From Thermoplasmata archaeon (lineage in GTDB: Archaea > Thermoplasmatota > Thermoplasmata > Lutacidiplasmatales > UBA184), in contig JAKIVS010000004.1 of the NCBI GenBank assembly GCA_022750435.1, forward strand, positions 1-64,000: a DNA stretch of 64,000 nt. Reading direction: 5' to 3'. The stretch's first letter is position 1. Every line of letters starts with the position of its first letter. A model generated the notes under the pieces. The model had not been told where the DNA came from, did no database searches, and was given only the letters and a program-made list of their open reading frames with translations. The translations under genes were made by a program, and so were the position numbers. Positions 51,501 through 52,050 of this stretch are shown here, one piece after another.

Positions 51501-51951
51501 GGTCGACGTGGCGGACGCGGTGACGCTCGTCCTCAACGCCCACTTCCTGCCCGACCTGATGGGGAATCTGAAGAGCTACGCCACGCAGAAATTCCGCTGC
51601 AAGGTCTGCAATACGTCGTACCGCCGACCGCCGTTGTCCGGACGGTGCTCGACGCCGGCCGCGCACGGCGCGCCGTGCGGGGGCGCGTTGACCCCGACCG
51701 TCTTCGAGGGGGCTGTCCGAAAGTACCTCGGGCTCTCGCAGCGCCTGGCGGCGACCCCGGGCGTCACCCCGTACGTCCGCCAGCGGGTGCAGCTGCTCGA
51801 GTCGTCGCTGGCCACGCTGTTCCCCGGCACGCCGCAGCAGGCGACGCTCGACCGGTTCGAGGCCGCGAAGGCGCCGACCGCGGTCGAGGAGATGGCCCGC
51901 GACAAGGCCCATATAGAACGCGCCGCCTCCGGTCCGACGGCGGGCTTGTAG
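48556..51951 (+). CDS. polC: DNA polymerase II large subunit (PolD DP2), intein-free
   Basis: [46 protein letters not shown]-type segment, [41 protein letters not shown]; zinc-binding [12 protein letters not shown]...C. Confidence 0.95.
   Translation: [1131 protein letters not shown]
51909..51916 (+). promoter_or_regulatory. TATA box (CCATATAG) of the tRNA-Arg gene, inside the DP2 coding region
   Basis: About 30 nt upstream of the tRNA 5' end. Confidence 0.55.
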
Positions 51952-52050
51952 GGTAGCCTGGATTATCCTGTTGGCCTTCGAAGCCAACGACGTGGGTTCG
52001 AATTGCCGGCGAGGGAGACCTCCGCCGGCCCGGAACTCCCACCAAGCCCG
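51942..52050 (+). tRNA. tRNA-Arg(TCG) with 34-nt intron in the T-loop (52003-52036 or 52004-52037)
   Basis: Acceptor GGGCTTG/CAAGCCC, G73; U8 A9; D-loop A14, G18 G19, A20, A21; anticodon arm TTGGC-CTTCGAA-GCCAA (anticodon TCG); T-arm GTGGG-TTCGAA[intron]T-CCCAC. Mature length 75 nt; intron has a GCCGGCG/CGCCGGC stem with GAGA-capped tip. Confidence 0.88.

Follow-up and report, generated by a model that had tools for sequence, protein, structure and literature searches.

A T-loop intron at position 59/60 of a tRNA-Arg(UCG) gene, and a set of such introns, in a Thermoplasmata lineage with a single two-domain EndA

Introduction

The DNA between positions 51942 and 52050 of the window (the whole stretch of 64,000 nucleotides analysed, from an uncultured soil archaeon) reads as a tRNA-Arg(UCG) whose T-loop is interrupted. 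This raises the question of whether the locus is a functional tRNA gene with an intron at an unusual place and, if so, which enzymes could remove it. The site concerned, 59/60, has already been listed among the non-canonical tRNA intron positions, and bulge-helix-bulge (BHB) introns have been described there in Crenarchaeota (PMC4090602). For Euryarchaeota the same review gives mostly alpha4 or alpha2 forms of the splicing endonuclease EndA and few tRNA introns, with one canonical intron per interrupted gene (PMC4090602). The ASL and CSL loops of EndA have been linked to intron diversity and to non-canonical introns (PMC12397907), and an abundance of non-canonical tRNA introns has recently been demonstrated in Asgard genomes (PMC11291895). 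In the description of the order studied here tRNAscan-SE 2 was used and introns are unmentioned (PMC9287336).

Results

Anatomy and detection of the interrupted gene

When positions 52003-52036 were taken out of 51942-52049, ARAGORN called a tRNA-Arg(tcg) with T-arm and acceptor intact; the claim of an earlier note that removal of these 34 nt restores the cloverleaf was right in both sequence and coordinates. All features lie on the forward strand. The 5' exon (51942-52002, tRNA positions 1-59) consists of the acceptor strand GGGCTTG, the D-arm, the anticodon arm (TCG), the variable loop, the T-stem strand GTGGG and the T-loop bases TTCGAA; it is 89-95% identical to its same-genus orthologues and is matched by the covariance model R1 described below. 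The 34-nt intron (52003-52036) lies in the T-loop between A59 (52002) and T60 (52037). Its frame can be shifted by one base because of a shared T, and the frame chosen is the one fitting all relatives. The 3' exon (52037-52049) contains T60, the T-stem strand CCCAC and the acceptor strand CAAGCCC, and is followed by the discriminator base G73 (52050). Within the intron, a hairpin with the strands GCCGGCG and CGCCGGC occupies 52005-52029. The bases TTCG (positions 54-57; 51997-52000, inside TTCGAA at 51997-52002) pair with CGGA near the 3' end of the intron (52031-52034) to form a central helix of 4 bp. The segment 51998-52001 comprises most of the exon half of this helix and A58; the helix has 4/4 pairs in 64/64 orthologues. 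Upstream, an ORF of 1131 aa (48556-51951, forward strand) resembles by eye the large subunit of DNA polymerase II (DP2); its stop codon falls within bases 1-10 of the tRNA, which makes the coding end overlap the tRNA 5' end.

In the unspliced window no tRNA was called by ARAGORN, nor by Rfam at gathering thresholds, and ARAGORN did not recover the unspliced tRNA-Arg(UCG) under several intron settings. At relaxed thresholds the only Rfam match in the window was a spurious one to tRNA-Sec. A second tRNA-Arg(UCG), a possibility raised in the earlier note, was not found in the genome (assembly 84% complete); the other BLAST match in the genome reads as Arg(GCG), apparently with an insert in its D-arm, and was rejected. 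The long ORFs of the window hold 488 CGA codons by a rough count in which some antisense ORFs are included, and no further tRNA for this codon was found in the 84% complete assembly.

Conservation, covariation and folding

Orthologues within the genus were found by BLAST with the 5' exon, and the intron ends were set by the pairing of T-stem and acceptor. All 26 same-genus orthologues fetched have an intron of 23-32 nt at the same bond, with 12/12 T-stem and acceptor pairs and 4/4 pairs of the central helix. A pattern search of GTDB contigs returned 64 records, nearly all titled Thermoplasmata archaeon and one Candidatus Lutacidiplasma silvani, which agrees with the Thermoplasmatota-like host proposed earlier. 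In every one of these named contigs the intron lies at 59/60 (63 distinct sequences, 23-38 nt), and again the 12 T-stem and acceptor pairs and the four exon-intron pairs of the central helix are all present; since some members share species, the 26 genes and the 64 contigs are not independent sets. Three orthologues from genomes of other families are intronless. In a genome of another family of the same order (G038, locus L251, G038:C38:6700-7000), tRNA-Arg(UCG) has a 13-nt insert at 37/38 and a further 13-nt insert at 59/60, and in a third family (G049) the Arg(UCG) gene also has a 59/60 intron.

The sequence of the intron hairpin changes between species while its pairing stays, and each of the six hairpin pairs shows substitutions in both strands. 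The covariation score of the hairpin was reached by none of 500 shuffles and was far above the shuffled and slid controls. Folded in isolation, the T-arm formed the T-stem, the 4-bp extension (UUCG 51997-52000 with CGGA 52031-52034) and the intron hairpin (z-score -3.1). In this fold the 3' bulge has 3 nt, and the 5' side is a 4x1 internal loop, not a clean 3-nt bulge; bulges of 3 nt on both sides are implied by pairing of columns 13 and 43 in 55/64 orthologues. The minimum-energy fold of the whole precursor (z-score -3.7) differs from that of the T-arm, and the centroid retains the T-stem and the intron hairpin. A chance origin of the insert is excluded by the orthologue conservation, the covariation and these z-scores. 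In the relaxed BHB-like geometry described in the earlier note, the register given, TTC with GAA, was one base off, and the 4-bp register found in 64/64 orthologues together with the minimum-energy fold of the T-arm places the motif closer to the canonical BHB.

T-loop introns in the genome and the lineage

Two covariance models were used for the survey, R1 for the tRNA body up to A59 and R2 for the T-arm BHB. With both, 59/60 introns were found in 13 of the 38 tRNA genes detected in the 84% complete genome, about one third: Arg(UCG), Arg(UCU), Gly(UCC), Asn, Ala(GGC), Lys(UUU), Ser(GCU), Ser(GGA), Glu(CUC), Asp, His, Leu(UAG) and Gln(CUG). A normal T-loop is seen in other tRNAs of the same genome. 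The presence of a T-loop intron, regarded earlier as unusual for such a genome, was confirmed, but not as a lone case, given these 13 genes and a family rich in such introns. A relative listed as 100% complete (G028) has 11 T-loop introns, and all 36 genus relatives have between 3 and 13 R2 matches per genome. In a less sensitive search, made as a survey of the phylum, members of the family had 3-10 R2 matches each. Other Thermoplasmata families mostly had 0-3 at E 0.01, some reaching 5 at relaxed E-values, and several single-contig genomes of the class had none; as R2 was trained on this genus, counts outside it are lower bounds. Those R2 matches that were read out proved to be interrupted tRNAs, save for a weak one in G028 (E 0.23), which sits in coding-like sequence and was discarded. 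The Arg(UCG) intron belongs to a group of T-loop introns retained within the family. By eye, apparent D-arm inserts were also seen in four tRNA genes, Lys(UUU) (L041), initiator Met (L052), Leu(UAG) (L237) and Arg(GCG) (L256), two of which also bear a T-loop intron.

The 4-bp central helix is intact in most T-loop introns; in about one third of those read out its fourth pair is mismatched, mostly as A57 with G. The partner of tRNA position 57 is intron base -6. Among 80 T-loop introns from different tRNA genes, G57 stands opposite C in 49/50 and A57 opposite G in 24/30. Position 57 and the intron base facing it therefore change together, even as a non-Watson-Crick A-G combination.

Splicing enzymes encoded in the genome

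A single EndA gene was identified in the genome, coding for 353 aa and containing two PF01974 domains, alongside a gene for the RtcB ligase; no other PF01974 gene was found in this 84% complete assembly. Five near-complete members of the family likewise have exactly two PF01974 matches, in a single gene each. The 353-aa EndA matches that of A. fulgidus at 1e-24 across both halves, and in its C-terminal unit the catalytic Tyr, His and Lys and the bulge-gripping Arg are aligned; the sequences of A. fulgidus and M. jannaschii EndA used there were pieced together in part from HMMER alignment letters, so that their termini are unreliable, and the motifs compared are seen in the HMMER alignment itself. 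The place of the CSL was defined by the insert seen in the crenarchaeal 3p1y in the HMMER alignment. No insertion at that place (between the [YFH]G and LSL motifs, where the loops of broad-specificity enzymes carry a conserved Lys) was found in this EndA or in the other aligned EndA loci of the genus, and no CSL or ASL insertion was found in the EndA of outgroups that also have T-loop introns. Judged by its sequence, the enzyme is of the alpha'2 type, with a predicted non-catalytic N-terminal and catalytic C-terminal unit and no separate beta subunit found in the genome, and its domain layout suggests that it forms a homodimer. The earlier note suggested looking for a heteromeric or broad-specificity EndA; neither a second subunit gene nor the loop linked to broad specificity was found in the 84% complete assembly.

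Discussion

Proposed splicing of the T-loop introns

The locus very probably encodes a functional tRNA-Arg(UCG), interrupted at 59/60 by a BHB intron that is removed by EndA and RtcB. A complete tRNA on removal of the insert, a 4-bp central helix, and genes for EndA and RtcB in the same genome were all found for it. Before splicing, the T-stem would be prolonged by a helix between the T-loop bases UUCG, the first four of that loop, and the 3' end of the intron, leaving short bulges at A58-A59/intron and intron/U60, with the intron hairpin beyond. The alpha'2-type EndA would then cut within both bulges, and RtcB would join the exons to give a normal T-loop.

We further think it somewhat more probable than the contrary that this loop-less alpha'2 EndA removes the T-loop introns of the whole genome, and some D-arm introns, including those with the A57-G mismatch. 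Such mismatched introns might be poorly cut by enzymes described as narrow, and splicing could alternatively require an unrecognised partner conferring broad specificity on the alpha'2 EndA. In favour of this, a review assigns relaxed motifs to (alpha-beta)2 or epsilon2 enzymes and restricts their efficient removal to these (PMC6379350), and the mismatch in one third of the introns would fit as well. According to a contrary view, homodimeric EndA can also cleave BHL-like motifs, and minimal BHB substrates are cut by the EndA of Ferroplasma, another homodimer (PMC8707768). Since this genome and five near-complete members of the family each yielded a single gene of two PF01974 domains, and most of the T-loop introns have a 4-bp central helix, we consider such a partner improbable.

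It is less probable still that the insert stays in the RNA and the tRNA works with a long hairpin in its T-loop. The 3' end of the intron keeps the TTCG pairing and the splice-site geometry while the hairpin varies in sequence and length (23-38 nt), and the same type of insert occurs at the same bond in 13 different tRNAs, the T-loop being normal in other tRNAs of the genome. The contact of T-loop with D-loop is, moreover, central to the shape of tRNA. This reading was rejected on conservation and covariation, and on the same grounds we dismiss, as hardly credible, a pseudogene or assembly artefact: the gene was missed by ARAGORN and Rfam and the assembly is fragmented and 84% complete, but the same arrangement recurs in assemblies of dozens of species, the exons retain every T-stem and acceptor pair, and CGA codons are common with no other tRNA for them found.

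Removal by the alpha'2 EndA, if true, would mean that non-canonical introns can spread without a heterotetrameric enzyme and without a CSL or ASL loop, and that the association described between the type of EndA and the position of introns does not hold in this clade. Whether intron spread is limited by the shape of the motif or by the type of enzyme can be tested directly in this lineage. The reservoir of 59/60 introns in this euryarchaeal lineage with a loop-less alpha'2 EndA contradicts the statement of one canonical intron per interrupted gene made for such archaea (PMC4090602), and tRNA counts of these genomes will be too low under scanners that do not model T-loop introns.

Comparison with known systems

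No earlier report of such introns in Thermoplasmatota was found in the open-access literature searched. The kind of intron is already known; new, within that literature, are how abundant it is in this lineage and that it occurs together with a loop-less alpha'2 EndA. Some of these T-loop-intron tRNAs may already be in gene databases. ARMAN-2 likewise pairs a non-crenarchaeal EndA with unusual introns; its EndA is a tri-unit epsilon2 enzyme (PMC12397907), whereas that of the present clade consists of two units and lacks an ASL insertion. The Asgard Atabeyarchaeia and Freyarchaeia are also uncultured soil archaea with many non-canonical tRNA introns (PMC11291895), but their phylum is unrelated to Thermoplasmatota. 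With the introns of Crenarchaeota (Thermoproteales) those described here share the 59/60 position, a BHB-type motif, many tRNAs hit and some genes with two introns (PMC4090602). In contrast to these, the host here is euryarchaeal (Thermoplasmatota), its single EndA is apparently of the alpha'2 type without CSL and not (alpha-beta)2, and the 59/60 bond dominates among the non-canonical introns found.
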